IMG/VR virus record: IMGVR_UViG_3300020442_000016
Span: 34,769 to 98,768 of that record
Reading direction: 5' to 3' (one strand)
Length of the DNA: 64,000 bases
DNA from: a virus
How positions within the stretch are numbered: position 1 is the stretch's first letter; every line of letters begins with the position of its first letter. Positions 5,972 to 64,000 of the stretch are shown in pieces. The notes below the pieces were generated by a model, which had not been told where the DNA came from, did no database searches, and saw only the letters and a list, made by a program, of their open reading frames with translations. Position numbers and translations under genes: made by a program.

Positions 5972-7210
5972 TTGATCACTCTCCGTCCCCACCAGTCACG
6001 AGCACTCGACGCTATGAGTGCCACTGGTCACGGTCAGGTGATCGTCCCGACTGGTGGTGGTAAAACCATCATCATGATCGAGCACGCTAAGCACCTGCTC
6101 AACGAAGGTCCTAAGACCATTGTTGTGGTTGCACCTCGCATTCTTCTTGCTAATCAACTTAGCGAAGAATTCATGCAGTTTATCCCTGCAACATGGACAC
6201 ACGTTGCACACTGCCACAGTGGTGAAACTCATCATTTCTCTACAACTAAGAGCGACAAACTTGCTCTCTTCAATAATACTGCACGAGCAGCAAATGAGTC
6301 TTGCATTATCTTCACGACGTATCATTCTTTGCGTCGTGTTGTAGATAGTGGCATCGATGTAGATGCTATTTACTTCGATGAAGCACACAATGCTTGCACT
6401 AAGCACTTCTTCGTAAGTGTTGCTGCTATGTCATTCAGTGCAGATAAGAAGTATTTCTTCACTGCTACACCTCGTGTCAGCAATAAGCATGACCGTGGTA
6501 TGAATAACCGTGAGATCTTCGGTCCAGTGATTGAGAATGTCCCTGCACCCGAGTTGATCAAAGGCGGTCACATTCTTCGTCCTACTATTGTCCCTTTCGA
6601 GACTGATTACACAGTAGACAAGAAACAACCCCATCTGGTCCACTCTACTACAGTGCAGGATATCATCGACAACCTCGATGAATCACATGCTGCTAAAGTG
6701 TTGGTTGCCGTGCCATCTTCTCGTGTGCTTGGCAACATCCTCGGACATACTGATCTACTCTTTCAACTGAAAGATCGTGGTTATGATGTCCTCCACGTTA
6801 CCTCTAAATTTGGAGCATATGTCAACGACCAAAAAGTCAACCGTGAAAAGTTTTTTGAAACCCTCAATGCGTGGGGTAAAGAAGATGACAGAAAATTCGT
6901 CATCTTTCATTACAGCATCCTTTCGGAAGGTATCAACGTTGCTGGTCTCACTCACACGATTCTCTTGCGAAATCTTAACGTCGTCGAGATGGCACAAACT
7001 ATCGGAAGGGTTATCCGACTTGATAAGCGCGATGCCGCTGGTATTGCGAGCGGTGATATTTCTCCTTGCTCTTGGAGTTGCTATCACAAACCCACTGGTT
7101 ACGTTAGTGTGCCTGTCCATAGCAATCATGGTGCCGCAGTTATCAAAAGACTGCAAAGGGTGACTGATGAGATCTTTGTGAAGGGCGTCCCTGCTACTGC
7201 CCTCGTGTGA
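5972..7210 (+). CDS. SF2 DEAH-box helicase
   Basis: This is a superfamily 2 helicase of about 412 aa. Motifs in order: a LRPHQ Q-motif-like start, Walker A PTGGGKT (residues 26-32), DEAH (136-139), TATP motif III (164-167) and QTIGRVIR motif VI (342-349). An ATP-driven DNA or RNA helicase/translocase is therefore clear. It resembles the UvsW/RecG-like helicases of T4-type phages, but I cannot assign uvsW with certainty. The start is the TTG at 5972: it follows the predicted transcript start and places LRPHQ at the N-terminus as in relatives, whereas the longer open frame begins inside the terminator. A terminator follows the stop. The likely role is remodelling of replication or recombination intermediates. 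Confidence 0.9.
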   Translation: MITLRPHQSRALDAMSATGHGQVIVPTGGGKTIIMIEHAKHLLNEGPKTIVVVAPRILLANQLSEEFMQFIPATWTHVAHCHSGETHHFSTTKSDKLALFNNTARAANESCIIFTTYHSLRRVVDSGIDVDAIYFDEAHNACTKHFFVSVAAMSFSADKKYFFTATPRVSNKHDRGMNNREIFGPVIENVPAPELIKGGHILRPTIVPFETDYTVDKKQPHLVHSTTVQDIIDNLDESHAAKVLVAVPSSRVLGNILGHTDLLFQLKDRGYDVLHVTSKFGAYVNDQKVNREKFFETLNAWGKEDDRKFVIFHYSILSEGINVAGLTHTILLRNLNVVEMAQTIGRVIRLDKRDAAGIASGDISPCSWSCYHKPTGYVSVPVHSNHGAAVIKRLQRVTDEIFVKGVPATALV

Positions 7211-7220
7211 CAATCTACAA

Positions 7221-7254
7221 GGTGCACACTAATTGTTGTGCACCTATTTTTCTT
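7221..7254 (+). terminator. Rho-independent terminator after helicase
   Basis: A perfect 8-bp stem GGTGCACA / TGTGCACC (7221-7228 with 7237-7244) with an 8-base loop is followed by TATTTTTCTT. It sits 10 bases after the helicase stop. Confidence 0.85.
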
Positions 7255-7264
7255 GGGTTATATT
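7236..7264 (+). promoter_or_regulatory. Possible promoter of the nuclease/methylase pair
   Basis: TTGTGC (7236-7241), 17 bases, then TATATT (7259-7264); an overlapping TATTAT at 7261 is an alternative -10. The -35 overlaps the terminator stem, repeating the arrangement seen at 5921. It lies 23 bases before the ATG at 7287. Confidence 0.5.
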
Positions 7265-7286
7265 ATATACATAACACACAAGGCAC

Positions 7287-7889
7287 ATGACTAACACACA
7301 ACTCTCCGACGCTCTCTTCAGAATCATCCCTAAAGCAGTCAACCTTACCACACAGCGTGTTTCTAAAATGCTTGCTATTGGTAGTGGTGGCACAAAACCT
7401 GACCTTGATTCATTCTTCGGTGAAGATAACACAGTTGACAAGACTAAGTTTCTTGCTAACATCTTCAATCCTGCACTTGAGAATGCAGCACAAGAGTTAG
7501 GTGTTGATTACATTACTGAGGAAACTGTTGGATATGATGCTATACTATTAGGAGAGGAGATTGAGAATAAGATGTCTCTAGGATCTAGCACATCTTCATT
7601 CGCTACTGGTAACAACCACAGCAAGACTAAAGTTGATAAGATCTTTTGTGTGAAACTCACACAGGATGGTAACAACTTCCCTCAGATCTTCGCTTGCATT
7701 GTTGACCTATCTCTCGCACAAAATCCTAAGACAGGATGGACAGATTCAGTTACTAAGACTGGTAAGAATAACAATGGATTCTCAACTCTCAGAGTCCACA
7801 ATGAGGATCTAATCTGCATCACTCCGATCTATGGTAAAGTAAGAAGGACTCAGAAATTCATTCACACTGTATATGAAACTATCTCTTGA
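7287..7889 (+). CDS. Candidate PD-(D/E)xK nuclease, possible type II restriction endonuclease
   Basis: No named family is recognised, but the 200-aa protein has the layout of a type II restriction enzyme. D84 is in a GYDAILLG strand, E93-x-K95 follows in an EIENKMS strand, and then comes a GNNHSKTKVDKIFCVKL segment (109-124). In PD-(D/E)xK nucleases the Asp, Glu and Lys coordinate Mg2+ and catalyse DNA cleavage, and the ExK strand is often followed by a similar Gly/Asn/Lys-rich turn. Its 3' end overlaps a DNA methyltransferase gene by 17 bases, a typical restriction-modification layout. The pair has its own promoter and follows a terminator. A different nuclease or a non-catalytic DNA-binding role remains possible. 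Nuclease identity is inference from motif and context. Confidence 0.55.
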   Translation: MTNTQLSDALFRIIPKAVNLTTQRVSKMLAIGSGGTKPDLDSFFGEDNTVDKTKFLANIFNPALENAAQELGVDYITEETVGYDAILLGEEIENKMSLGSSTSSFATGNNHSKTKVDKIFCVKLTQDGNNFPQIFACIVDLSLAQNPKTGWTDSVTKTGKNNNGFSTLRVHNEDLICITPIYGKVRRTQKFIHTVYETIS

Positions 7890-8712
7890 TGATACATATC
7901 TCATGAGTTGTATCGATGGGATGCAACTTATGGATGAGGAGAGTGTTGACTTAGTTGTCACCTCTCCTCCTTATGATGACTTGAGGACATACAATGATTC
8001 CAGTAAGTGGGATCACAATGTGTTTATGCAGGTTGCTGATAACCTCACCCGCGTATTGAAGCAGGGTGGGGTTATTATGTGGAATGTGAATGACGCTACG
8101 ATTAAAGGTAGTGAGTCTGGATCTAGTTTCCGTCAGTGTCTATATTTCATGGATAAGTGTGGTCTACGACTACACGATACTATGATATATGAGAAGACTG
8201 GCACAGCATTCGCGTCAGGTCCTAAGAGTGTAAGATATACTCAAATCTTTGAGTATTGTTTTATACTATCCAAGGGTAAACCCAAGACTATTAATCTTAT
8301 TCAAGATAAGAAGAATGCATGGGCAGGTTACACCAGTTTTGGCAATGCTAAGACTCGAAAGAAGGATGGCACAATGCACGATCCTAATCGAAAGAGTAAT
8401 GTCATCCGTGAGTATGGTGTAAGGACTAACATTTGGAAGATTAAAAACTCAGGTGGTTTTGGTCAATCATCCAAAGCAAGTTACAAACATCCTGCCACAA
8501 TGCCTGAGGAATTGGCAAGGGGTCACATTCAAACATGGTCAAATCCAAACGATCTAGTTTTGGATCCTTTTATGGGTGCTGGCACCACTGCACAGGTTGC
8601 ACTTGAAGAGAATAGACATTTTATTGGATTTGAGATTGATGAAATGTATCATGGCATGTGTGTTGAGCGTGTGCTACCATTTAAGGATAATCTAATCACT
8701 CGTCTATCATGA
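7873..8712 (+). CDS. Beta-class DNA methyltransferase (N4-cytosine or N6-adenine)
   Basis: This 279-aa enzyme carries the catalytic motif IV TSPPY at residues 30-34 and the AdoMet-binding motif I DPFMGAGTT at 231-239. The order IV before I, with the recognition region between, marks the beta class. The SPPY form favours N4-cytosine methylation, but N6-adenine is not excluded. The C-terminal segment after motif I (FIGFEIDEMY) is also typical. The length is normal for a complete stand-alone methylase. The upstream gene overlaps it by 17 bases and resembles a nuclease. On its own it could protect phage DNA from host restriction; with the partner it could form a restriction-modification pair. The next gene overlaps its stop by 4 bases. 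Confidence 0.92.
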   Translation: MKLSLDDTYLMSCIDGMQLMDEESVDLVVTSPPYDDLRTYNDSSKWDHNVFMQVADNLTRVLKQGGVIMWNVNDATIKGSESGSSFRQCLYFMDKCGLRLHDTMIYEKTGTAFASGPKSVRYTQIFEYCFILSKGKPKTINLIQDKKNAWAGYTSFGNAKTRKKDGTMHDPNRKSNVIREYGVRTNIWKIKNSGGFGQSSKASYKHPATMPEELARGHIQTWSNPNDLVLDPFMGAGTTAQVALEENRHFIGFEIDEMYHGMCVERVLPFKDNLITRLS

Positions 8713-8990
8713 TTCACGAAGTGCCCGAAGGTTACTCACATTATAGTTGTGAGGAATTTAACAAAACATATGATCGTGTGTGGTTACACCACTCGCGAGA
8801 ATACATATATGCAGAGGGTGCAGAGGTCAAAACAGTTTGGGGATTTATCAAGCGTAAAACTGGTGCAATTCATTCACCAATAAATGCAAAGAAGGTCGGT
8901 AAGATCATCGATCCCGATCAAACTACGCCCTACACTGCTATGCCACGCCCTAAAGTCAGTCCACTCATGCTATTGTGTGATTATGATTAA
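8709..8990 (+). CDS. Hypothetical protein (93 aa)
   Basis: This is a basic 93-aa protein with aromatic-rich strands in the first half (YSHYSCEEF, YDRVWLHHSREYIY) and a Pro-rich end. No family is recognised. The ATG overlaps the methyltransferase stop by 4 bases, so it is probably co-translated with it; any link to methylation is only positional. Its own 3' end overlaps the next ATG by 8 bases. Confidence 0.72.
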   Translation: MIHEVPEGYSHYSCEEFNKTYDRVWLHHSREYIYAEGAEVKTVWGFIKRKTGAIHSPINAKKVGKIIDPDQTTPYTAMPRPKVSPLMLLCDYD

Positions 8991-17086: not shown

Positions 17087-17344
17087 ATGAGTGAAAAAAA
17101 CGGCGTCCCCGAGTTTGAAAGTGACGCAGAGTATATTGCATGGGCATTTAACCAGATCAGTGAAGGGATGAAGAATCTAGGCAGTCGTATTGCTAACCTA
17201 GAGATTGCCTTGTCCCGTCTTCCTGAGCCTGGACCTAACATGATTCAATACAAGATCCCTGAGGATGATAAGTATTCAAATCTGAAAGAAGTATTGGACG
17301 ATCTGTATGTTAAACTAAATAGCAGAAAGTCTGATGATGCGTAA
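17087..17344 (+). CDS. Hypothetical coiled-coil protein (85 aa)
   Basis: This is an acidic protein with a central heptad-like segment (residues 18-45) suggesting a coiled coil, and a C-terminal helix. Its stop overlaps the following virion gene by one base (TAATG). It may be a chaperone or trimer adaptor for that protein; no family is recognised. Confidence 0.7.
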   Translation: MSEKNGVPEFESDAEYIAWAFNQISEGMKNLGSRIANLEIALSRLPEPGPNMIQYKIPEDDKYSNLKEVLDDLYVKLNSRKSDDA

Positions 17345-20300
17345 TGCCCGCATATATTGAATCAACAGGTCGATCCTTTCCCAATCCTATTAAGAGCGAA
17401 GATTACGCAAAACCTTTCGAGCGTCCCTCTTCTAGTAAGTATCGTAGTAGGTCTGGGTATCAACAAGGCACTGGCACACAATACTACATCGAGTTTGAAG
17501 GAATGGGTCCTGGCAGTATGCCACTGGGTAAGGACCAGATACACTATCTCGGTGAAGAGGATGAGCAGTGCGTAAACGCCTGCGGGTATGAGCGTCAACC
17601 CATCTACCGTTGGTATAGAGGTAGTAAAGACGATCACAAGTATTCAACAGGTCCCAAGCTACAAAAGCGGGACATGATTGGTGAGAATGAGAGCAAGGAC
17701 AAAGCAGCGTCGGGATATAACCCTGAGCCTCGCTCTGGCACACCAGTCTTCTTTACAATGATGACACAGGTCAGTGGATCTGTGCCACTGTATATCTGGT
17801 ATAATCATTGGCCTGATGATACTCAGTTGTCACTGAGTAGTAGTGCACCACCTGATAGTAGTGGTCCTGGTCAGTATAGATTAGTAGGTAAGGCAGGTTA
17901 TGTGTTTCCAAATGCGGCTGCAGCACAAGCTTATGCTGGCAGCGGAGGTGAGCAGCCTGCTGCTCTATATGAATATCTACATCCTGACCCTGATCATTTC
18001 TATACTACTGATCCAGCAAACGAAGTCAACCTAGCAGATAACTCTCCCATCCCTCCTAAGAAGAGATATAAGGGGGAATACTCCTATCAGGGTATACTTT
18101 GCTATGTGTTTAGGAATGACACCCCTGACGGTCCTGAGAGACGCCTTGAGGACATCGGTAAGATTGGTGCTAGTGGACAGTGTGTTGACCGATCTGGTTG
18201 GTATCAGTATACAGGGACTTGGACATATAGCAGATATCGTCGTAATCAAGACGCTAATGGCAATAGAATGGAGGGCACACCTGGCGTTAATGGTTGGGGT
18301 GACTCGAATAATGCTGCGCTGATCGATACTGACGGTGCGTTTGAATGGTTTTATGGTGCGAATGGTCCAATCAAAGCAGCAGTGCCGAGATACCTAGGGT
18401 TTGAAACATCATATGATTCACAATTCTACTACTATCTTTATGATACTTCATACCCATGGAATGGTCCTATCTTTGGAATCCAGTATGAATTGAATGATGC
18501 GCCATGTTGTCCCAATACAACGTGTCCTGATGGCGAAAGCTCTGTACCATGTTGTATCCCAGTCATCTCATATCACTCCCACTTCTATGAAATCCGTGAA
18601 GATTCATGGGAAACTACAGAAAGTGAGATCACTTTGACGGATGTTTCGACTCGTGGAGTCAATGAATCCTTCTGGACTGTTGATACAAAGAGTAGAAGAG
18701 TCTTTTTCCGCTATCAAACTAGCGTTGGTAAGGTCAGTCAAGGTGAATCTATCAATGGTTGGGAGGTAAATAGTGTTAGATACTTTGGTGATGAGTTAAA
18801 ATGCGGTGTAATTGAGTTTGGTGGAGGCGATGGAAACGCATTTCAGCGTGGAGTTACCTACACTGCGGAGGATGGTGCGCAATTTGAAGTGCTTGCAGGG
18901 TTTGGTATACCCAATAAAGCGGCATATTGCGGTGTATATGAGTTTAATAAGAGGATTGGTTACTACAAAGTAGAGATTGACCCCGCAGCTTTGATCCCAA
19001 AACGCACTTTGGACGTTGCACAACTGGAAGCTAAGGTCAATAAGAAGGGTGAGATCGTCGAAGTTGAGGTTATTAACGGCGGAAGAGGGTATATTAACCC
19101 TCAAGTGTCCGTTTCTACGCCTGGTGTGCTCGAAGATTTCAGTGCAGGTGACCTTGCATCGTCTCAAACTGCCTCATTTACTAAGGAAACTAGCCGTCAA
19201 GCATTCCCAGCACCCGAATCTACGAGTAATTTTGACGTAGCAGGTAAGAATATCTTCAAAAAAGTCCGTAACAAGACAAATAAACTCCAAGCAGAGAATG
19301 ATTTTGGCGAAAGAGAGGACATTAGACAGGCGGAGATCCGTATTGGAGAGATAGATGAGCTTGGTGTTATCAAAAGTATCGTTGTTGAAGACCGTGGTAA
19401 GGGGTATAACCCTGCTGAGCCACCCGCAGTCTTCGTTGTTGACCCTAAACTAGAGACTATTAACTCCCCAGATCTTGATAAAGTTGATTTTGGTGGTGTT
19501 GGTAAGGACTTTGCTAGTGCATTTGAGAATTTAGAGCTCCCTCAAGGCGACGATGGTGACTATATTTCACCAGCAGACATGTTTGAAGAGGGTCAGACGA
19601 CCACTAAAGGTGGTTTCCAAGCAAATATTCCCACCTCTTACCTTAAGATGGCGGAAATTGACGACTCAATGATGACATTGTGCCAAGATTTGCCCGCAAA
19701 TTGCATCAATATTGAGTTTCCGAAGAATTTGAGTAAGGCAATGCCTACTGATGGAGCATTTGATAGCCTCGGACAACTAGGAGATGAGGGTTTTGACGAA
19801 TTTAGGAGCGCAGTTTACCCCGAAGTGCTCAAAAACGTCGCTCAAGCGGATGAAGAAGGCGAAGGATTGAGTCATCTTTACGGATTTAACCAGAAAAACC
19901 GCTGTATCAAGGTCGCACAACCCAAGGTATACAACATTCAGCGTTGGTTTGACGTGCCTTGTGCGTATTTGGACGCTAATGAGGACGGAGATACGGTTGC
20001 ATATGGATTTTTGATCTATAAATACTGTGCACCTAAGGATGATAATGCGTCATTCAAGGTAAATCTGAAATTTAACGGTAAAACTACGGGTAGTCAGGGT
20101 CAAGATTTCCTTGATTGGTTGATGAGTATGCCAAAACCGAAGCTTACTGACGCAAGAGACTATACAGATCCAAATACAGGCAATAAAAAGAAGGTTTGGA
20201 ATTGCGCTCGTGCTGATGTTGCGGGTAGATGCTATGAAGATGGCGGAAATATTGTCTTCCTTGCGGTTGGTGGTGATGAAAATACGTTTGACTACAACCA

Positions 20301-20937
20301 ATCTTCCTATAGTGAAGGTCAGCAACTAGAATTGTGGTTGGGTGACAACCTAGTTTCACACGCTCCTGGCTCTATAAGGAATTGGCAATGGTCAACATCG
20401 TCTACTGACCCTGAAACTGGGCAGACTACGACTACAAGCAATAATGGATCCTTCCAATACACTGCATTGGAAGTTGATTGCAACAACGTTGTATCAAATC
20501 AGATGGCAAATCACCCATGCTGGGACAATTTTGTTAGATCGAGTACTAATCCTGACGGACCTTTAGACGTTTACTGTGGATGGGATGCAGATGGAAACAC
20601 AATCGCGGGGACTACCTGGTGGAATACTTCTGCTAGGGGTATATCTAATATCTTCTGCTCCACTTGCACTAATACATATTGGGCTGGCACTGCTTCTGCG
20701 GCAGGTTTGGCATATGTCTACGACGCATCCATCGCAATCGATCCAAGCAGAATCACAGCAGGAAACTATGAAATCCTGATGGGTCCATACTCTGGTGTGA
20801 TGTCTATCAAGAATTATCTAACAGGTGGCATCAATGCCCTTAGTAGCGCTATAGATAATCTAGGGAATCCATTCTTCTCAGAGTGTGAGGTGGATGTCCC
20901 ATGGACTGCAGGAAGGGAAATTAACGACGACGTTTAA
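17344..20937 (+). CDS. Large virion protein with DUF5648-like motifs (1197 aa)
   Basis: This is a soluble beta-rich protein. Residues about 80-260 contain three aromatic repeats of the DUF5648 type (IYRWYRGSKDDHKYS, LYIWYNHWPDD, LYEYLHPDPDHFYTTD), a motif often found in secreted or surface proteins. Many Cys residues occur at 165-430 (CCPNTTCP, PCC), unusual for a phage structural protein. GGxGY-type beta modules, also present in the giant tail proteins, lie near residues 575 and 679. The gene is one base away from overlapping the next, a PAAR-like gene, and precedes the gp25/gp6 block. It is probably a tail-tip or baseplate decoration protein that binds a surface glycan; that role is inference. 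Confidence 0.8.
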   Translation: MPAYIESTGRSFPNPIKSEDYAKPFERPSSSKYRSRSGYQQGTGTQYYIEFEGMGPGSMPLGKDQIHYLGEEDEQCVNACGYERQPIYRWYRGSKDDHKYSTGPKLQKRDMIGENESKDKAASGYNPEPRSGTPVFFTMMTQVSGSVPLYIWYNHWPDDTQLSLSSSAPPDSSGPGQYRLVGKAGYVFPNAAAAQAYAGSGGEQPAALYEYLHPDPDHFYTTDPANEVNLADNSPIPPKKRYKGEYSYQGILCYVFRNDTPDGPERRLEDIGKIGASGQCVDRSGWYQYTGTWTYSRYRRNQDANGNRMEGTPGVNGWGDSNNAALIDTDGAFEWFYGANGPIKAAVPRYLGFETSYDSQFYYYLYDTSYPWNGPIFGIQYELNDAPCCPNTTCPDGESSVPCCIPVISYHSHFYEIREDSWETTESEITLTDVSTRGVNESFWTVDTKSRRVFFRYQTSVGKVSQGESINGWEVNSVRYFGDELKCGVIEFGGGDGNAFQRGVTYTAEDGAQFEVLAGFGIPNKAAYCGVYEFNKRIGYYKVEIDPAALIPKRTLDVAQLEAKVNKKGEIVEVEVINGGRGYINPQVSVSTPGVLEDFSAGDLASSQTASFTKETSRQAFPAPESTSNFDVAGKNIFKKVRNKTNKLQAENDFGEREDIRQAEIRIGEIDELGVIKSIVVEDRGKGYNPAEPPAVFVVDPKLETINSPDLDKVDFGGVGKDFASAFENLELPQGDDGDYISPADMFEEGQTTTKGGFQANIPTSYLKMAEIDDSMMTLCQDLPANCINIEFPKNLSKAMPTDGAFDSLGQLGDEGFDEFRSAVYPEVLKNVAQADEEGEGLSHLYGFNQKNRCIKVAQPKVYNIQRWFDVPCAYLDANEDGDTVAYGFLIYKYCAPKDDNASFKVNLKFNGKTTGSQGQDFLDWLMSMPKPKLTDARDYTDPNTGNKKKVWNCARADVAGRCYEDGGNIVFLAVGGDENTFDYNQSSYSEGQQLELWLGDNLVSHAPGSIRNWQWSTSSTDPETGQTTTTSNNGSFQYTALEVDCNNVVSNQMANHPCWDNFVRSSTNPDGPLDVYCGWDADGNTIAGTTWWNTSARGISNIFCSTCTNTYWAGTASAAGLAYVYDASIAIDPSRITAGNYEILMGPYSGVMSIKNYLTGGINALSSAIDNLGNPFFSECEVDVPWTAGREINDDV

Positions 20938-52111: not shown

Positions 52112-55100
52112 ATGCCCCAGAATACTAATCTAAATATTGCTCCTTATTTTGACGACTTCGATAAGGACAAAAACTTTTATAGAGTCCTCTTTCGACCAGG
52201 ATATCCCATCCAGGCGAGAGAGCTTACAACGATGCAATCGATTCTACAGAATCAGGTTGAAAGCATCGGCACGCACTTCTTCAAAGAAGGTGCGATGGTC
52301 ATTCCTGGACAAATTGGATATGACCTTAATGTGCAGGCAGTTATTCTGCAGCAATCTTTCCTTGGTGTAGACGTAGAGACATATAGGACACAACTTAACG
52401 GTCAGATTATTGAGGGCATCACAACTGGCGTTAAGGCAAAGGTCCTTTACTCTATTCCTTCTACAGAATCAGAGCGTGGTTATATTACACTGTATGTAAA
52501 ATATATTGACTCAGGTGACACAACTTCAAGTGAATCTCTTAAAGGTTTCCAACCCAACGAGCAGTTGCTTGCTGAAAACGAAATCACTTTCGGCACAACT
52601 CTGATTGAAATTGGGTCTCCATTTGCACAGTTGCTTCCTGTTGATGCAACTGCTGTAGCATCTTCTGCTTATATCAATGAGGGTGTCTATTTTATTAGAG
52701 GTCACTTTGTTGATGTGCCTTCCTCTTATTTGATTCTTGAGCAGTATTCAAACAACCCTTCTTATAGAGTTGGTCTTGAAGTTTCAGAATCCATTATTAC
52801 TCCTGAAGATGATCCTTCTCTTAATGATAATGCCGCTGGCACTTCTAATTATTCTGCGCCAGGCGGACATCGTTTCAGAATTCGTACCTCTCTCGTCAAG
52901 AAAGCAATTAACGATGAGACAGATAAGAATTTTATCGAGCTACTCAGAATTAATAACTCCAAACTAGAGCAGTTTGTTAATAATACTGAATACTCTGAGC
53001 TGGAGAGATCTCTGGCACGCCGCACATATGAAGAGAGTGGCGACTATGTTATTGATACCTTTGACATCAAGATGCGTGAGCACCTTGACGATGGTTTCAA
53101 CAATGGTGTTTATAGAGCAGGTGCACAATCCAGAGAAGGCAATGCTGCCTCTGAAGATATGCTTGCCATTGAGGTTTCACCAGGTAGAGCATATGTTAAA
53201 GGTTACAGGACTGAATTCCTTGTGCCTCAGTATGTTGATGCTCCTAAACCTAGAGACTTCAACTCTGAAGAAAACGCTATTGTATCTTTCAACCTAGGTC
53301 AGTTTGTTAAGGTCTACGATGTATATGGATGGCCTGATCTAACTGGTGAAGGTGTTACTGATGCATATCAAGTCCTTGAGATGAGAGACGACTGGGCTCT
53401 CAATCCAGGCTCCAGTGTAAGTGGTAGACAGATTGGTCGTTGTCGCACCATTCAGATCCAAGAAGATCAGACTGGCATCTATGACCTTTATATGTTTGAT
53501 ATTCAAATGTATACTGCCGTTAACTTGGCAGCAGGTAACCAATCTGTGCAGGTTGGTGATGTGATTGTCGGCAGGACTTCTAATGCTAGAGGTTTTGTTG
53601 CTGATGCTGGATCTGGTAACTATTTCTCCCTTGAGCAAGTTTCTGGTAAATTTGTTAACGGTGAGGTGATGGAAAGAGATGGTCGTGTTATCGGCACACT
53701 GGAAGCAGCATGGACATTTGAGCCTACTGATACAAGATCTTGTATTGGTAGAAACAACAGTAACCAAGTTATCTTTGGTTGTAACTGGTTGTTAAATGAT
53801 CAAAGAGAAATCGAAGCAACTACTGTTACTCTTGATCAAGCTGCATTTACTTTGACTGGTTTTAGGACTAAGTTTGAAAACGATCTTAGACCAGGTGAAG
53901 TTGTAACTGTATCTGGCACAAGTGCAGAAGGTGAGACATCTTTCCGTATTGAGAGAGTTGATCCACAATATATTAAGACACAATCTGGTAACTCTCACAC
54001 AGGTGCTTCCTATAATGTGTTTGATTATGCTACTCAAGTAGCGAGAGTTGATCCTACTCTGAATAAGGGATCTATTTCCAATGGAGAATATTCTGTATTG
54101 GCACGTCTTCGTCCATACATTTTCCAAAAAGATTATCAGAATGGTGAGCTGACGATTGATACTCCTAAGACTTCAATGAAGTCTATCAGTGATGAATCAT
54201 TCTTTGTCTATCGCACATTCACAAACAAAACTGTTGTGTCTGGTGGTGTTACTGTTACTCTGCCTGAATCTGAGCAGTTTGCATCTCTTGACGGTGAAAA
54301 CTATGTCTTGACTGTCCTGTCTGAATCTGGATCTGCATACTCAGTTGGACAAAACCTTGACATTGATGCTCTGAATGATGGTGGACAGTTGACTGTTACC
54401 TTCGGTGCATCTAGACAGTCCATCACGATTGACGGTTTGACAAATGTCCAGACTGTTAAATTGACTGCACTGGTTTCTAAGAATATCGTTTCTAAGAAAA
54501 TTAAGACTGCTGCAAAGATGCGTGCCATGAAAGTGGTCCGCACACAAAATAATAATGACCAGCAAAAATTCGGTCTTGCTTACGGTAACTTGTATGGCAC
54601 CCGTATTGAAGATAGAGAAATTTCTTTTGCTCTAAATGACGTTTATAAGATTCATGCAATCTATGAATCTGAAGACGATAATGATGCAGAAGCACCTTTC
54701 CTGACACTGCAAGAAGCAACCTTCTTTGATTCTGGTAGTGTTGTTATTGGTAGGACATCTGGTGCTCGTGGTCGTGTTATCCAGTTTATTAACGCAACTC
54801 TAAAACTACACATCGTCGCATTGAATGAAATTCCATTCTTGCCTGGCGAAACTATTGATGGTGTAGATGATGATAGTCAACCTCTCTCAGCAATCATTGA
54901 TGATGCTGAAGGATCTATCGGTAGAGGTAGTAAAGTTATTACATCTCAGTATGAGTTGGATCCTGGTCAAAAAGCACATTTCTATGATGTTTGTAAGATC
55001 ACTAGAATTCCAGGATTTACAGCACCTACAAGAAAACTACTTGTTATCTTTGACTACTTCATTCATGAATCTTCAGGTGACTATTTTGCTGCACAATCTT

Positions 55101-58100
55101 ACACAGGTATTACTTTCAAAGAGATTCCAAATTACAAACTTGATGGATCTATTAACTTCCTGAGAGACCAGTTGGACTTCCGTCCTGCTGTTGGTGAATT
55201 GGCATCTGGTAACGGCACTATTGGTGCACCATACTTTGTTAACTGTGCATCTCTTGACTTTGCTGCACGCACATTTAACACTTCTGGTGGCACGGGCGGT
55301 GCGACAATCTTCGACATCATGAAGGTTGATACGGAATTTAGAATGGATTATTCCTACTATCTTCCTAGAATCGACAAACTGTTTATTACCCATGACAACA
55401 AACTGCAAGTTGTAAGGGGTGTCTCTGGTGAGGATCTTCTCCCACCTGAGGGTATTGAAAATGCTATGTTGTTGGCAGTGCTTGAGCACAAACCATACAA
55501 CTACGATGTGGAGCGAGATACTCTGATCTTCCCTGAGATCATTCGTCGCTACACTATGAAAGATATTGGTGATCTTGAGACTCGTCTTACTCACGTTGAG
55601 TATTACACATCTCTGTCACTGTTGGAAGTCCAAGCAGACAACGCTAAGTCCTATGACGACAATGGTTTCGACCGTCTGAAGAATGGTTATGTGGTTGATG
55701 ACTTTACCGACCACACTATTGGCGACGTGCTTAACGTTGACTATAAGTGCTCCATGGACTTCAAAGAAGGTCTGTTGAGACCTGCTCACTATACTACTAA
55801 TGTCCCTCTTGAGTTTAATGCTTCAGCATCTAACAATGTTGTAAGGACTGAAAGTAATATGATCTTCCTGCCTTGGCAGGATGTTGAGATTGTTAAGCAA
55901 CCTTATGCATCTAGGACTGAGAATGTTAACCCATTCAACGTGTTTACATTCATTGGTCGTGTTGACCTAACTCCAGCATCTGACGATTGGATTGATATTG
56001 AGCGTCTTCCTGCTCGTGTTGAAAACGTCGAGGGTGATTTCTCTGCTGTTGCTAGAGACCTTCAGATTGACCAGAATGGTTTTGCTCCTATCCAATGGGG
56101 ATCTTGGCAAACCAACTGGACTGGTGAATCACTTCAATCATCTTCTTCCTTCCAGTCTAGATCAGGTACATATGGTATTGGTCGTCAGTTAGGTCGTGCT
56201 GGTCACGGTCAGCGTCGTCAGGGTCTTTTCTACCTGCACGAAAGACGCACATATCGTGTTGTTAACAACCAAGCAAGACAAGGTATCAGGACTCGTGTTG
56301 TGCCCAAGATTGACAGAAAGTCTCTTGGTGACACTATCCTGTCTCAAACAGCAATTCCTTGGATTAGATCTCGTAACATTGGTTTCAACGTTGATCGTTT
56401 GAAGCCTCGCACCAGAATGTATGCATTCTTTGATGGTGTTGATGTTACCAACTATATTACTCCTAAGGTTATTGAGCTGATCAAAAACTCTTCTGAAGAC
56501 ACTCGCACAAACGAAACACCTTTCGTTGTTGGCGAAACTGTCATTGGTGAATCTTCCAAGTGTCAACTTCAGGTCGTCGCTGCAAATGACGGTTATAAGA
56601 CTGACCCTTATGGTGTTGGTGAGGCAACTCTTCCCGAGTCATATGCATCTCAAACACCCGTACTTAATATTGACTTGAAGGCACTTGCTGAAACTGTCAA
56701 TCCTAACTTCTTCGGTAATGCACAAACAGGTGAAGTGTTGGTGGGTCAAACCTCTGGTGCTCGCGCTGTTGTGAAAGATCGCCGTCTGCTCTCTGATAAC
56801 ATCGGTAACCTGCAGGGCACATTCTTCATTCCTTCTCCTAAGAATGATGCAAACCCACGTTGGGCAACTGGCACAAGGACATTTAGATTCACAACATCTA
56901 ATACTAATAGTAGATCACCTGGCGAAGTTGATTCTTCTGCAGATACTGAATATAAAGCAACAGGTACTTTACAGACTGTTAGAGAAAATATTCTTGCAAT
57001 CAGAAACGCTCAAATCGTTAGAGATACTGTTACTGATGAAAGACAAGTTATTACAACTAGGACTGAGACACGTCAGGTTGGTTGGTATGACCCTCTTGCA
57101 CAATCCTTCATCGTTGATGAAGAAGGTGGTATCTTCCTGACAGGTGTTGATATCTTCTTTAACACTAAAGATAGCAACATTCCTATCTCTATGCAGATCA
57201 GGACTATGGAGAATGGTTATCCTACTAAGGATATTCTTCCTTTCTCTGACGTGACAATCGATCCTTCTCAGGTTGAATTGTCTGATAACGCTGCAATCCC
57301 AACACGATTTACATTCCAGTCTCCTGTTTATATTAAGCAGTCGATTGAATATTGCTTCGTGCTTCTGTCTGACTCCAACGAATATAAAGTTTGGATCTCC
57401 AGAATGGGTGACGTTGAAGTCAGCGGGACAAGGACCATCTCTGACCAACCATATGCTGGTGTGCTCTTTAAGTCACAAAACGCATCTACATGGACTGCTG
57501 ACCAGTATGAGGATTTGAAGTTTACCATCTATCGTGCTGAATTCACAGCAAGTATTGGTAACGCCGTATTTAATAACGCTGAGTTGGGTCTCGGTAACGG
57601 TGGTGTCCATAACTTGATTGAGAATCCAATTCAAACTCTCAAACCAAAGCAACAACTGTTGCTCCCTACAGGCACAAATAATAATTTCACTATTGGTGCT
57701 CGTATCATTCAGACACCTTCTAACGCAGAAGGCACCATTGTTGAGTTTGACTCAACATCTGATCCTGAAGTGATTACGATTTCCGATATTGTTGGATCTT
57801 GGCAGTCAGGTTTCTTGGATGCAAATGGTAATCCATTCCAAGGTATTAAATCCTCTCAGTCAACAGCAACCATTGTGTTGTCCGCTATCTTTAACGGTGT
57901 CTTTGAAGTTAATAATACTATCACAGGATCTACATCCAACGCTACCGCTAAAGTAACCAACTATGATGCAGGCACACAAACTTTGAGTGTCAACTTTGTT
58001 GATGGTGCATTCGACTTGGCAGATACACTATCTGAGCCAGGCGGCACATCTGCAACTATTACTAGCGTTACTTATGCTGGTGATACTTATGACACTTATC

Positions 58101-59398
58101 CTACTGCTGCTCCTACATATTCAAATGATGATAAGGAAGTCTTGGTGTATCACAGAAACCACTGTATGCATCAACGCACAAACAACGTAGAGGTTTCTGG
58201 AATTGTTTCTGAGATCCCTTCTACTACTTTGACTTCTACTCTGTCAGTTGGTGCTGGTAGTATTCAGGTGCAGGATGCTTCTGCATTCCATACGATTATT
58301 AATGGCACAGGAATTGGTAACTTGAATCCTGGCTTTATTAAGATCGGCACAGAAATTATTAAATACTCTGCTATTTCTACTAGCGGACAAACCATTACAG
58401 TTGCAACTTCTGGTAGAGGATCTAACTCTACTGCTGAGCAAGAGCATCCCTCTGGCACAGTTGTTGAATGTTACAACCTTGATGGTATTCCTCTGACAGA
58501 AATCAATAAGGTCCATACCAGCATTTCTTGCCCATGGTTGGATACTTATATGTTGCACGTTGATAGTGTTGCAACAAATGGAATTCGTGCAGGTGGCACA
58601 GGCGTTATTGCTTCTCAGAATGTCCAGTATGAGACTTTGACACCTACTGTCTCCACCATGAATCTCCCAGAGACTAATATTCTTGCTCGTGTAAATACTA
58701 CTACGGGCACGTCAATCGGTGATGGATCTACCACCATCGACCAAGCGTCCTTTGTTAACAATGGCACATACGAGGATGTTGTCCTCAATGAGCAAAATAG
58801 ATTCTACTCACCTCAGTTGATCTGCTCCAAGATTAACGAGCAAAACAAACTTGATGGTGGTAAGTCATTCAACATGATTATTGAGTTGTCTACTGATAAG
58901 GCATCTCTATCTCCATGTATTGACTTGGATCGTTGCTCTCTGATTACAACCACCAACCGTATCAATGCATGGCCAGGCGGTCCTGATCCTTATGGACAAC
59001 AGTCTAATATTGATAGGGATCAAGATGTTTCGACACTTCCTAATGGTGATCAAAACGACGCAGTATACATCACACGTCTCGCCCGCTTGGGTCAAGAGGC
59101 TAGATCTCTCAAGGTTGACTTCCAAGTCACCAGACATCCTGCTTCTGAAGTCCGCGTATACTACCGTGCATTCAAGATCGGTAATGCTACATCCAGCGAA
59201 GAGACAGGTTGGACTCTGTTAGGTCTGCCGACGAATTATGACTCTACTCCTTCCGAGGAAATTCTTTATAAGGATTATGCCTATGAAGCAAGAGGTCTTA
59301 ACTTCAACGCATTCCAAGTGAAGATCGTTATGAGATCTACTAACCAAGCAAGAGTACCTCTAATTGCTGATCTTCGTGCTACTGCTTTAGCTACTTAA
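52112..59398 (+). CDS. DUF4815 baseplate/tail protein (2428 aa)
   Basis: The N-terminal 350 residues are a clear DUF4815 domain: LNIAPYFDDFDKDKNFYRVLFRPGYP, ARELTTMQSILQNQVESIG, KEGAMVIPGQIGYD. This domain marks a phage baseplate protein in T4-like cyanophages and occupies the gp10 position. The rest contains three or more TSGARG/TSNA units (a G.t.ig.TSgArg...V... repeat at roughly 480, 880, 1545 and 1940) and a YDPLAQSFIVDEEGGIFLTGVDIFF core near residue 1660. It probably forms the outer baseplate and contacts the long fibres. It starts one base after gp8 and is followed by a sigma70-type promoter. Confidence 0.85.
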   Translation: MPQNTNLNIAPYFDDFDKDKNFYRVLFRPGYPIQARELTTMQSILQNQVESIGTHFFKEGAMVIPGQIGYDLNVQAVILQQSFLGVDVETYRTQLNGQIIEGITTGVKAKVLYSIPSTESERGYITLYVKYIDSGDTTSSESLKGFQPNEQLLAENEITFGTTLIEIGSPFAQLLPVDATAVASSAYINEGVYFIRGHFVDVPSSYLILEQYSNNPSYRVGLEVSESIITPEDDPSLNDNAAGTSNYSAPGGHRFRIRTSLVKKAINDETDKNFIELLRINNSKLEQFVNNTEYSELERSLARRTYEESGDYVIDTFDIKMREHLDDGFNNGVYRAGAQSREGNAASEDMLAIEVSPGRAYVKGYRTEFLVPQYVDAPKPRDFNSEENAIVSFNLGQFVKVYDVYGWPDLTGEGVTDAYQVLEMRDDWALNPGSSVSGRQIGRCRTIQIQEDQTGIYDLYMFDIQMYTAVNLAAGNQSVQVGDVIVGRTSNARGFVADAGSGNYFSLEQVSGKFVNGEVMERDGRVIGTLEAAWTFEPTDTRSCIGRNNSNQVIFGCNWLLNDQREIEATTVTLDQAAFTLTGFRTKFENDLRPGEVVTVSGTSAEGETSFRIERVDPQYIKTQSGNSHTGASYNVFDYATQVARVDPTLNKGSISNGEYSVLARLRPYIFQKDYQNGELTIDTPKTSMKSISDESFFVYRTFTNKTVVSGGVTVTLPESEQFASLDGENYVLTVLSESGSAYSVGQNLDIDALNDGGQLTVTFGASRQSITIDGLTNVQTVKLTALVSKNIVSKKIKTAAKMRAMKVVRTQNNNDQQKFGLAYGNLYGTRIEDREISFALNDVYKIHAIYESEDDNDAEAPFLTLQEATFFDSGSVVIGRTSGARGRVIQFINATLKLHIVALNEIPFLPGETIDGVDDDSQPLSAIIDDAEGSIGRGSKVITSQYELDPGQKAHFYDVCKITRIPGFTAPTRKLLVIFDYFIHESSGDYFAAQSYTGITFKEIPNYKLDGSINFLRDQLDFRPAVGELASGNGTIGAPYFVNCASLDFAARTFNTSGGTGGATIFDIMKVDTEFRMDYSYYLPRIDKLFITHDNKLQVVRGVSGEDLLPPEGIENAMLLAVLEHKPYNYDVERDTLIFPEIIRRYTMKDIGDLETRLTHVEYYTSLSLLEVQADNAKSYDDNGFDRLKNGYVVDDFTDHTIGDVLNVDYKCSMDFKEGLLRPAHYTTNVPLEFNASASNNVVRTESNMIFLPWQDVEIVKQPYASRTENVNPFNVFTFIGRVDLTPASDDWIDIERLPARVENVEGDFSAVARDLQIDQNGFAPIQWGSWQTNWTGESLQSSSSFQSRSGTYGIGRQLGRAGHGQRRQGLFYLHERRTYRVVNNQARQGIRTRVVPKIDRKSLGDTILSQTAIPWIRSRNIGFNVDRLKPRTRMYAFFDGVDVTNYITPKVIELIKNSSEDTRTNETPFVVGETVIGESSKCQLQVVAANDGYKTDPYGVGEATLPESYASQTPVLNIDLKALAETVNPNFFGNAQTGEVLVGQTSGARAVVKDRRLLSDNIGNLQGTFFIPSPKNDANPRWATGTRTFRFTTSNTNSRSPGEVDSSADTEYKATGTLQTVRENILAIRNAQIVRDTVTDERQVITTRTETRQVGWYDPLAQSFIVDEEGGIFLTGVDIFFNTKDSNIPISMQIRTMENGYPTKDILPFSDVTIDPSQVELSDNAAIPTRFTFQSPVYIKQSIEYCFVLLSDSNEYKVWISRMGDVEVSGTRTISDQPYAGVLFKSQNASTWTADQYEDLKFTIYRAEFTASIGNAVFNNAELGLGNGGVHNLIENPIQTLKPKQQLLLPTGTNNNFTIGARIIQTPSNAEGTIVEFDSTSDPEVITISDIVGSWQSGFLDANGNPFQGIKSSQSTATIVLSAIFNGVFEVNNTITGSTSNATAKVTNYDAGTQTLSVNFVDGAFDLADTLSEPGGTSATITSVTYAGDTYDTYPTAAPTYSNDDKEVLVYHRNHCMHQRTNNVEVSGIVSEIPSTTLTSTLSVGAGSIQVQDASAFHTIINGTGIGNLNPGFIKIGTEIIKYSAISTSGQTITVATSGRGSNSTAEQEHPSGTVVECYNLDGIPLTEINKVHTSISCPWLDTYMLHVDSVATNGIRAGGTGVIASQNVQYETLTPTVSTMNLPETNILARVNTTTGTSIGDGSTTIDQASFVNNGTYEDVVLNEQNRFYSPQLICSKINEQNKLDGGKSFNMIIELSTDKASLSPCIDLDRCSLITTTNRINAWPGGPDPYGQQSNIDRDQDVSTLPNGDQNDAVYITRLARLGQEARSLKVDFQVTRHPASEVRVYYRAFKIGNATSSEETGWTLLGLPTNYDSTPSEEILYKDYAYEARGLNFNAFQVKIVMRSTNQARVPLIADLRATALAT

Positions 59399-60005: not shown

Positions 60006-63000
60006 ATGGCAAATAGAATACAACTAAGAAGAGACGGTGCTCAGCAATGGGCAAACGTCAACCCTATCCTTGCCCAAGGTGAATTGGGTATCGAGATCGA
60101 TACGTCGCGTATCAAAATCGGTGATGGCGTTACGCCGTGGAACTCGCTTAAATATGAGCGACCACTAGAAACCGAATCTAATACCGCCAACACTCTGGTA
60201 AAGAGGGATGCTGACGGTAACTTTGAGGCGGGTGCAATTACTGCATCGCTGATTGGTAATGCTGCGACTGCAACAAGACTGGCAAACTCCAGACAGATCC
60301 AACTGGGTGGTGACATGTCTGGTAGTGGCACGTTTGATGGATCCTCAAACCTGACCATTACTGCAGAATTGAATTATGTTACAACTCTGCCACACTATGA
60401 TCAGAATGATCTTGACGCACAAGGCACATATACAAAACTAACTATTGACTCTCGTGGTCGTATTGTTAACGCATTCAATCCCACGACTCTAAATGATTAT
60501 GGAATCATTGACGCGCAACCTCTTGATAGCGATCTGACATCGGTTGCTAGTATGACCACTTTCGGTCTGATGTCTCGTCAGGCAGAAGGTAGTATTGTCA
60601 CTCGCACCATCACTGGTGGTAGTGGTCGTATTATTGTACAGAATGGTAACGCACAAACCAACAACCCCTTCCTTGATCTTGCTGATACAGCAGTTGTTGT
60701 TGGCACATATAACCCTGTAGGACTTGGAGATACCCCTCTTGTTTCTGTAGGCACAGGTTCTCAGACTGTTAATACTACAAACTTCACAGTTGACAGATAC
60801 GGTCGTTTGACTTATGCTCAAACCAGTCCTATCGCAACTGCAACGGAGGGAGCGAAGTCTGGCACATCTTTCACCACTTACGATAACGCTGTTGCGTATC
60901 CTAGATTTTCAAAGATTATTGCTCCTAATGGTAGAGTATATCAAGCTGCTATTCGGGATGTCGGAGCAGGTCTCGGCGCACCAACGCACAACACAAACAA
61001 TGGTGATGCAGACGATCAAGGTGGATGGAGAGATCTGGGTGCTGATTCCGTCGAGCAAAAGGGTCTTGCGAGTTTCGACCAAGAAGACTTTGATGTAGAT
61101 GACAACGGTCATGTAACGATTGCTGCAGACGCAATCGAAAATACTCAGTTACAATCTGCTGGTAAACTTATGTTTACCGACCAAGCAGCAACTGAAGAGT
61201 TTATTCTCGACAAAGAGCGCACAACTGACAATGCCTATCATGGCATCACTAAAGTAAACCATGTTAACATCAACAACCGCACTGGTAATTCTGTTTTCAG
61301 AGTTGTTGGCTACGATACTTCTGAGTATCCCTTCCAACCTTCCATCCTGTCGCAGGGTAATTCTTACCCCGCTGTTACTGCTGATGATGCTAACGGCAAT
61401 GGGAGCGCCACAAGCGGTTCTTCTCTTACTGGCGCTGTTGACATTAATCTTGACACTACCCTTTCTGGTAATCTTACCCTCGACGTTGCAAAAGCCGATC
61501 AATTCATAAAGAGGACTAGCGGCAATCTTGAGGTTGCTCTAGAGATTAATGAAACTAACAACCGCTCGATGGATGTTAATGTCACCAACGCAGGTTCTGG
61601 TGATGCAACATTCAATCTGACTGTTGATCAAGATATTACTATTAACGTTACCGATGTTGATCATCGCGTTAACGTAGAAGACTTCCACATTCAGGATAAT
61701 GTGTTGTCAACCACCAATTCCATCATGGTGCTTGACCCTGCTGATGACGATGACATTAGTGGCACAGTCCGTATCCGTGGAGACTTGACTGTTGATGGCA
61801 CCACGACTACAGTTAACTCAACTACAGTCACCATCGATGATGTCATTCTTACCTTGGGCGGAGACACAACACCAACGCTCGATGATGGAAAAGACAGAGG
61901 TGTTGAATTCCACTATTATGATTCACAAGCAAGAAAAGGATTCTTCGGGTGGGACGAAAATTACGCGGATGCTAACATATGGTCTGGCACTGGCGGGTAT
62001 AGGTTCCTCTACAACGCGACTAACACAAGCGAAGTTTATTCTGGTACTGACGCTCCTCTCATTGCTGGTAACCTCAGACTAACAACTAATACGTCTTCTA
62101 CTTGGAAGACACCTACAACTGGCACATTGGTAGTAACTGGTGGTGCAGGTATTTCTGAAAACCTCAACGTGGGTGGCACAACTCACCTGAATGGTAACGT
62201 TGAGATTGATGGCACACTTGATATTGATGCCAACTTTGCTATCAGAGATGGCAGCACTGATAAGTTTACTGTTGCTAGTGCTTCAGGTAATACTGTTATT
62301 GAAGGCACACTGGATGTCCAGCTGGAAACTGAAATTACAGATAACCTAATTGTAAGAGCAGATAATAAAGTATTTGATATTAAGACAGATGCTGGCGTAT
62401 CTAAGTTTACTGTAGATACCGATAATGGTAACACTGTCATTGAAGGCACAGTTAATGTCAAGCAAGGCGTTGACTTTGATAGCACACTGAATGTCGATAG
62501 TGATGTAACCTTCAACGCAACATTGGATGTTGACGATGATGCTACATTCCACAACGACATTACACTTGATACCACTGGTAAATTCTTTACAATTACCAAT
62601 GGTAGTAGTCAGACTTTCCGTGTAACATCGACAAATGGTAACACAGATATTGAAGGTAGTCTTAATGTTGGCGGCATCAACACTTTTGAGCGCACTAACA
62701 ATATCGTTATTGCTGAAACTACAGACGATATCACATTAAGCAGTGTAGGTAACGCTACCTTTGCTGGTGGTGTAAACATCGATAAGGATGTAAGAATCGG
62801 CACCGATCTGTACGTGGCCGATCGTTTAGTCGTCAAAGACGCTGGCACAGCACGCACACGTCCTTCACTTCTCAACAACGTTGATGTCCTGTATCGCACC
62901 TATCTGGGTGGTGGCGCAGCACACAATGCAGACTTTGCTGATGATCCTGATGCTCAACTTAGAGTTGCAGGTGGTGTAGGTATTGTCCAAGACTTGTATG

Positions 63001-64000
63001 TTGGTGACGATTTCTATATTGGTAAGGTTTCTAATACAGACACTATTGAATTCCAAGTCCTTGGTGAGTCTGGTGCTACTACAATCGGTCGTGTTGGACA
63101 GGGTGGCACAACAGATGGATCACTTACAGTCCACGGTGATGTCACATTTAACCGTGATGTCACATTTAATGGTGACGCTCTAACCTTTGGTGTTGATGCA
63201 ACTGATGTATTGACAGTCAATGCTATCTCCACATTCACTGACAACGTTACTGTTAACGGTGACTTGGATGTTGATGGTAATACCGTTATTGAAGGTAACC
63301 TGACTGTTAACGGCACAACTACAACTATTAACTCTACAACTCAGACTCTGGACGATCCCGTCTTTACTCTGGGTGGCGATACTGCTCCTTCTCAGGCAGA
63401 TGCTAAGGATAGAGGTATTGAGTTTAGATATTATTCTGGCAGCGCACAGATTGGTTTCTTTGGTTGGGATAACTCTGCTGGTCGCTATGCTTTCTATCAT
63501 GGGGCGACTAATTCTTCAGAGGCATTCTCTGGCACACGCTCTGGTATTGACGCTGGATCACTCAAACTATTTGATACAACCAATTCCACATCAGCATCTA
63601 CAGGTGCACTGATTGTTGGTGGTGGTGTTGGTATTGGTCTAGACCTTACTGTTGGTGATGATCTTATTGTTACCGATGACGGTAGTTTCGGTGGCAACGT
63701 AGATATTACTGGCACATTAGATGTCACTAATGACCTTGCAGTCAACGGTAATAAATTTACTGTTGTTGCCAGCAACGGTAACACATATGTTGCAGGCACT
63801 TTCCAAGTTGATGGTAACTCTACCATTGGTAATGCTGGATCTGATAACCACATTGTTACTGGCACAGTAACATTCAACCAAGCAATTACATCTACTGACA
63901 TCACTGCTGATCAGATTGAGATTGGTGTTGATGGTCCTACTGAAATCAGCACTACTTCTGGTAACCTGATTCTTGATTCTGATGGCGGCACTGTCAACAT
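60006..64000 (+). CDS. Long tail-fibre protein with Mtd-like N-terminus (partial, runs off the window)
   Basis: The frame is open from the ATG at 60006 to the window end (at least 1331 codons) with no stop. The first 50 residues (NRIQLRRDGAQQWANVNPILAQGELG..., ...KIGDGVTPWNSL) match the Mtd_N type N-terminal domain found at the base of phage fibres. The remainder is a series of beta units (VNGNLTV, LTVDG, GDVTFN, NTVIEGN) typical of triple-stranded fibres, interrupted by two longer modules near 61795 and 63310 (TTTTVNSTT..., LGGDTTP..., GFFGWDEN). It would be trimeric. The receptor-binding tip lies beyond the window. Confidence 0.88.
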   Translation, partial: MANRIQLRRDGAQQWANVNPILAQGELGIEIDTSRIKIGDGVTPWNSLKYERPLETESNTANTLVKRDADGNFEAGAITASLIGNAATATRLANSRQIQLGGDMSGSGTFDGSSNLTITAELNYVTTLPHYDQNDLDAQGTYTKLTIDSRGRIVNAFNPTTLNDYGIIDAQPLDSDLTSVASMTTFGLMSRQAEGSIVTRTITGGSGRIIVQNGNAQTNNPFLDLADTAVVVGTYNPVGLGDTPLVSVGTGSQTVNTTNFTVDRYGRLTYAQTSPIATATEGAKSGTSFTTYDNAVAYPRFSKIIAPNGRVYQAAIRDVGAGLGAPTHNTNNGDADDQGGWRDLGADSVEQKGLASFDQEDFDVDDNGHVTIAADAIENTQLQSAGKLMFTDQAATEEFILDKERTTDNAYHGITKVNHVNINNRTGNSVFRVVGYDTSEYPFQPSILSQGNSYPAVTADDANGNGSATSGSSLTGAVDINLDTTLSGNLTLDVAKADQFIKRTSGNLEVALEINETNNRSMDVNVTNAGSGDATFNLTVDQDITINVTDVDHRVNVEDFHIQDNVLSTTNSIMVLDPADDDDISGTVRIRGDLTVDGTTTTVNSTTVTIDDVILTLGGDTTPTLDDGKDRGVEFHYYDSQARKGFFGWDENYADANIWSGTGGYRFLYNATNTSEVYSGTDAPLIAGNLRLTTNTSSTWKTPTTGTLVVTGGAGISENLNVGGTTHLNGNVEIDGTLDIDANFAIRDGSTDKFTVASASGNTVIEGTLDVQLETEITDNLIVRADNKVFDIKTDAGVSKFTVDTDNGNTVIEGTVNVKQGVDFDSTLNVDSDVTFNATLDVDDDATFHNDITLDTTGKFFTITNGSSQTFRVTSTNGNTDIEGSLNVGGINTFERTNNIVIAETTDDITLSSVGNATFAGGVNIDKDVRIGTDLYVADRLVVKDAGTARTRPSLLNNVDVLYRTYLGGGAAHNADFADDPDAQLRVAGGVGIVQDLYVGDDFYIGKVSNTDTIEFQVLGESGATTIGRVGQGGTTDGSLTVHGDVTFNRDVTFNGDALTFGVDATDVLTVNAISTFTDNVTVNGDLDVDGNTVIEGNLTVNGTTTTINSTTQTLDDPVFTLGGDTAPSQADAKDRGIEFRYYSGSAQIGFFGWDNSAGRYAFYHGATNSSEAFSGTRSGIDAGSLKLFDTTNSTSASTGALIVGGGVGIGLDLTVGDDLIVTDDGSFGGNVDITGTLDVTNDLAVNGNKFTVVASNGNTYVAGTFQVDGNSTIGNAGSDNHIVTGTVTFNQAITSTDITADQIEIGVDGPTEISTTSGNLILDSDGGTVN
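61795..62140 (+). repeat. Duplicated fibre module, copy 1 of 2
   Basis: Sequence of the form 'TTTTVNST.T.ldD...TLGGDT.P...D.KDRGvEF.YY...a..GFFGWD...Y.F...AT..SE..SGT...i.aG.L.L.....S...TGaLvV.GG.GI..nl.vG' recurs about 1510 bases later at 63310-63640. The two copies match at amino-acid level along their whole length. Confidence 0.7.

Follow-up and report, generated by a model that had tools for sequence, protein, structure and literature searches.

The analyzed window is a 64,000-nucleotide stretch that forms part of a 98,768-base IMG/VR virus record (IMGVR_UViG_3300020442_000016), whose baseplate genes match those of T4-like cyanomyoviruses. Downstream of a helicase gene, the window carries 2 ORFs on the + strand, 7287-7889 (200 aa) and 7873-8712 (279 aa), which both have an ATG start and overlap by 17 nt. 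These ORFs and their overlap are as described in the initial annotation, which had proposed that they form a phage-borne restriction-modification pair. The features of the locus are the following:

7220-7255, + strand: intrinsic terminator-like hairpin with a T-rich tail
7259-7264, + strand: TATATT, a -10-like element of the pair's probable promoter
7287-7889, + strand: predicted PD-(D/E)xK restriction endonuclease, PHROG 11812
7873-8712, + strand: beta-class DNA methyltransferase

The hairpin (7220-7245) lies just past the helicase stop and consists of a 9-bp stem, AGGTGCACA...TGTGCACCT, followed by ATTTTTCTT; the RNA fold z-score of this region (7205-7262) is -2.6. A promoter shared by both genes had been placed at this terminator. 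The terminator and the TATATT element agree with that placement, but a generic sigma-70 scan upstream of the nuclease start found no promoter. TATATT fits the pattern TATAWT. In 25 of 30 relatives this pattern is found no more than 60 nt before the nuclease gene begins, mostly at positions -26 to -35, compared with 11% of random windows; as these loci are related, the nominal p value overstates this enrichment. The 30 relatives span all 3 nuclease subfamilies described below.

The upstream helicase was considered as a dedicated third subunit of a restriction system and rejected, since its family is found in 418 cyanophage records and in most cyanomyovirus records. On the other side, the region assigned to the pair had been extended to position 8990, which takes in a 93-aa ORF (phrog_573) with no demonstrated link to the 2 genes.

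Elsewhere in the window, a single ORF of 6862 aa spans 24539-45127 on the + strand, and further very large ORFs are found at 17344-20937, 52112-59398, and 60006-63998. Their neighbors belong to baseplate and structural families, and they probably encode giant tail or virion proteins. The first ORF (3-1535, + strand) matches the PHROG tryptophan halogenase family at 3e-138, a family that is already known in phages.

The methylase and the predicted nuclease

The protein encoded by 7873-8712 matches Pfam N6_N4_Mtase (3.8e-42), PHROG 67, and the PADLOC models for orphan and Type II methyltransferases, and its nearest sequences in the PDB include an N4-cytosine methyltransferase and M.MboIIA. Its catalytic and SAM-binding motifs are intact, with TSPPY towards the amino end and DPFMGAGTT towards the carboxyl end, the order of the beta class to which it had first been assigned. 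We take the SPPY form of the motif to point to N4-cytosine, which is the likely product, with N6-adenine also possible. The region of approximately residues 136-200, presumably where beta-class enzymes carry target recognition, is nearly as conserved as the rest of the protein, whichever nuclease is its partner. Neither the relatives nor the marine methylome paper allowed a recognition sequence to be deduced.

The protein encoded by 7287-7889 matches PHROG 11812, a family of unknown function, at 6e-92, and found nothing significant in sequence searches of Pfam, NCBIfam, PADLOC, or the PDB. Relatives are present in 17 phage records (syn9, Syn10, P-TIM40, S-MbCM6/25, S-RIM4, S-H35, and S-MS29) and in at least 55 IMG/VR loci. 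A scan of genome contigs for the nuclease returned 2 loci, both reading as cyanophage DNA, and no cellular ancestor or relative of known specificity; a plasmid search gave no match. These 2 loci are filed under Nonlabens xiamenensis (NZ_RMVE01000006.1) and a Euryarchaeota MAG (NHGE01000052.1), probably by contamination or a binning error, judging from the 75-81% identity of their proteins to the cyanophage protein.

An AlphaFold model built from 30 family members (pLDDT 89.4, pTM 0.85) gave restriction endonucleases as structural neighbors, consistent with what the initial annotation had anticipated. In Foldseek searches against the PDB, the matches were mainly Type II restriction enzymes in nearly uninterrupted order (NaeI, ThaI, EcoRV, DpnI, PvuII, and BglI), while each single match was weak (best E 3e-3, none below 0.001, TM-scores about 0.3-0.4). 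The residues D84 (in GYD), E93 and K95 (in IENK), and the segment GNNHSKTKVD are located where they had been reported. The model places D84 immediately ahead of strand 85-87, with E93 and K95 on strand 90-98. The protein thus looks like a predicted PD-(D/E)xK endonuclease of a previously unnamed family.

This family, here called subfamily A, is part of a deeper superfamily. Upstream of methylases that lack the nuclease of the window, other proteins occupy the same overlapping place. Those of subfamily B (205-242 aa) align with A end to end in a profile comparison (183 columns, probability 95.9, E 6e-9, 16% identity), with D84, E93, and K95 of A superposed on D90, E103, and K105 of B. An intermediate subfamily, AB, is recognized by the profiles of both, aligns with both, and reaches the P-TIM40 nuclease by tblastn at E 1e-11. 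The model of subfamily B is weaker (pLDDT 68). Across A, AB, and B, the 3 presumed catalytic residues are invariant even though the extremes are only about 16% identical, and in the A model they lie beside or on the strands, as is characteristic of PD-(D/E)xK enzymes; residues fixed over 22 members include K54, G82-x-D84, E93-x-K95, G108-N109, and K115. Conservation over 22-30 diverse members and the deeper superfamily places the motif first noticed in a single protein beyond chance.

Both genes are under purifying selection: the median dN/dS (127 gene pairs that are not independent; Nei-Gojobori style) is 0.19 in the nuclease against 0.08 in the methylase, and the nuclease evolves the faster of the two. 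These data bear on 2 alternative roles. It is established that some PD-(D/E)xK nucleases paired with methylation act in repair, and an enzyme nicking new, unmethylated strands under guidance of the methylase mark, as MutH does with Dam, would suit both a T4-like phage that replicates by recombination and a family under purifying selection. However, the best structural matches of the A model are restriction enzymes, with MutH absent from the best 50, and the pair occurs in only 17 isolate records, whereas the baseplate gene of this phage is found in about 458 cyanophage records; so patchy a spread is unlike that of a housekeeping function. We consider a role in repair or strand discrimination improbable.

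Alternatively, the nuclease could be a catalytically dead or repurposed DNA-binding protein that modulates the methylase, which would then in effect be an orphan anti-restriction enzyme. The faster change of the nuclease would fit this, as would the report that marine phage methylases are almost all solitary (PMC9516812). Invariance of D84, E93, and K95 in 3 divergent subfamilies would be unexpected once catalysis was lost, however, so that this explanation, too, appears quite unlikely.

Linkage and probable partner exchange

The nuclease gene is directly upstream of the methylase gene in all 17 isolate records whose methylase is at least 79% identical to that of the window. As the genomic neighborhoods of these pairs differ, the 2 genes travel together. 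A separate scan of IMG/VR with the methylase as query yielded 80 loci. In 69 of these an A, AB, or B nuclease is adjacent to the methylase, and 68 of the 69 overlap it or lie within about 90 nt of it. Another 8 loci, all of a single lineage, contain a close methylase without an adjacent nuclease: 4 have the nuclease elsewhere on the same contig, approximately 7 kb away where both could be placed, and the other 4 are 5-30 kb contig fragments that lack it. The last 3 loci contain distant methylases (below 62% identity). The genes are thus close and co-inherited, as those of Type II systems are, and the methylase almost always accompanies the nuclease, for whose homologs no other function has been assigned.

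Exceptions were also found in the opposite direction. On the contig fragments L058 and L080, the nuclease gene is directly upstream of the helicase gene and no methylase is present; the L080 nuclease copy is frameshifted. On a third contig (L066), the methylase is apparently frameshifted.

In a maximum-likelihood tree of the methylases, the subfamily A label requires 7 changes, at least 5 of which are forced by well-supported branches; for example, the methylases of L090 (subfamily A) and L095 (subfamily B) are sisters with support 99/94. The simplest reading of these sequences is that the nuclease gene has been exchanged beside a constant methylase. Free-standing homing endonucleases are mentioned for T4-like cyanophages in a passage of PMC3037559 citing Zeng 2009, and the PD-(D/E)xK homing enzyme I-Ssp6803I is among the weak matches of the B model, but a selfish homing gene that had landed beside the methylase by chance would be expected to insert independently of a fixed partner, and neither the tight link to one methylase over dozens of loci in several neighborhoods nor the exchange of subfamilies with the methylase retained fits this explanation, which we regard as the least probable of all.

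One distant methylase (57% identity) is preceded by a third, unassigned ORF (L162:651-1379), which carries GGDMIFQGKPYEIKTG and resembles another D...ExK nuclease. A weak relative of this ORF is found in the freshwater Synechococcus phage DSL-LC02 (OR032571.1, L180:3803-4459), where a ParB-like gene adjoins it and no methylase is annotated nearby.

A proposed phage-borne restriction-modification pair and its relation to known systems

Taken together, the proposal of the initial annotation is supported, and we are fairly confident, on the basis of sequence comparison and structural models, that the overlapping genes form a Type II-like restriction-modification pair that cuts unmethylated DNA in the infected cell. 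The methylase would modify a short sequence on the phage DNA, presumably to N4-methylcytosine, and the endonuclease, by means of D84, E93, and K95, would cut this sequence wherever it is unmethylated. Packaged phage DNA would arrive in a new cell already methylated; once the genes are transcribed from the probable promoter near 7259, any unmarked DNA would be open to cutting by the nuclease. A host chromosome without the mark would unavoidably be a target, and so would any co-infecting phage lacking the methylase. Several points speak against restriction-modification: the operon begins with the nuclease gene and no controller gene was identified, an arrangement that does not account for timing; the single fold matches are weak; the B model is weaker; L058 and L080 are without a methylase; and the L066 methylase is apparently frameshifted.

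The selected benefit is, in our judgment, on balance the exclusion of competitors; help with the breakdown of host DNA is the less likely, though still credible, alternative. Several cyanophages, including syn9 and P-HM2, rapidly degrade host DNA (PMC7852597). The pair is present in syn9, while P-HM2 is not among the isolates in which it was found, so that host DNA can probably be degraded without it. Competition is favored over scavenging because the pair is rare and its nucleases are swapped, although in a host without the mark the two would go together.

More speculatively, lytic cyanophages may share one mark while swapping fast-diverging nucleases, such that marked phages tolerate each other and exclude unmarked ones. 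Such a weapon could be widespread and overlooked, the methylases being listed as orphans in surveys for want of an annotated nuclease family.

No prior report of this pair was found in the open-access literature, and judged by these sources three things appear new: this family of nucleases, its distribution among T4-like cyanophages, and the swapping of partners. Algal and giant viruses already provide precedents for virus-borne restriction-modification itself. The pair had been described as unusual for a lytic T4-like phage; it is indeed rarer than orphan methylases, but its presence in 17 isolate records from at least 5 cyanomyovirus lineages means that it is not unique. If the restriction-modification reading is correct, PHROG 11812 and its unannotated relatives would gain a name and a function, and some phage methylases called orphans would be half of a restriction system. 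The phages syn9, P-TIM40, S-MbCM6, and S-H35 would then be cultured models for phage-on-phage exclusion in the ocean. The swapping of partners would provide a natural test of restriction enzyme divergence, with one recognition sequence presumably kept.

Among known systems, the orphan methylases of the same Pfam family in T4-like phages of Cronobacter and Enterobacter are homologous to the cyanophage methylase (41% identity), and no relative of the nuclease was found in those phages. In T4, phage DNA is modified with hydroxymethylcytosine, and EndoII and EndoIV degrade host DNA. If the preferred explanation is right, the cyanophage pair likewise combines marking of its own DNA with cutting of unmarked DNA, except that its mark comes from a site-specific methylase rather than hydroxymethylcytosine.

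The pairs of chloroviruses and Marseilleviridae (CviAI, mel_015/mel_016) are similarly complete and virus-borne, and mel_015, like the cyanophage nuclease, has no recognizable domain (PMC7253447). They differ in belonging to eukaryotic viruses and in having a GATC N6-adenine methylase (PMC7253447). In marseilleviruses, host DNA is left undegraded by the pair, whose proposed role is the exclusion of co-infecting viruses (PMC7253447); whereas melbournevirus spares the DNA of its host, the cyanophage pair shares a compartment with the bacterial chromosome.

A further parallel is with Type II systems with beta-branch PD-(D/E)xK enzymes, such as NaeI, ThaI, EcoRV, and PvuII. These likewise have a D...(D/E)xK site and adjacent but separate genes for the nuclease and a beta-class methylase, and the weak fold matches suggest a similar fold. 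Compared with these, the cyanophage nuclease shows no detectable sequence similarity (Pfam, NCBIfam, PADLOC, and PDB), and the pair is distinguished by being borne by lytic phages, in which the nuclease has apparently been swapped under a single methylase lineage.
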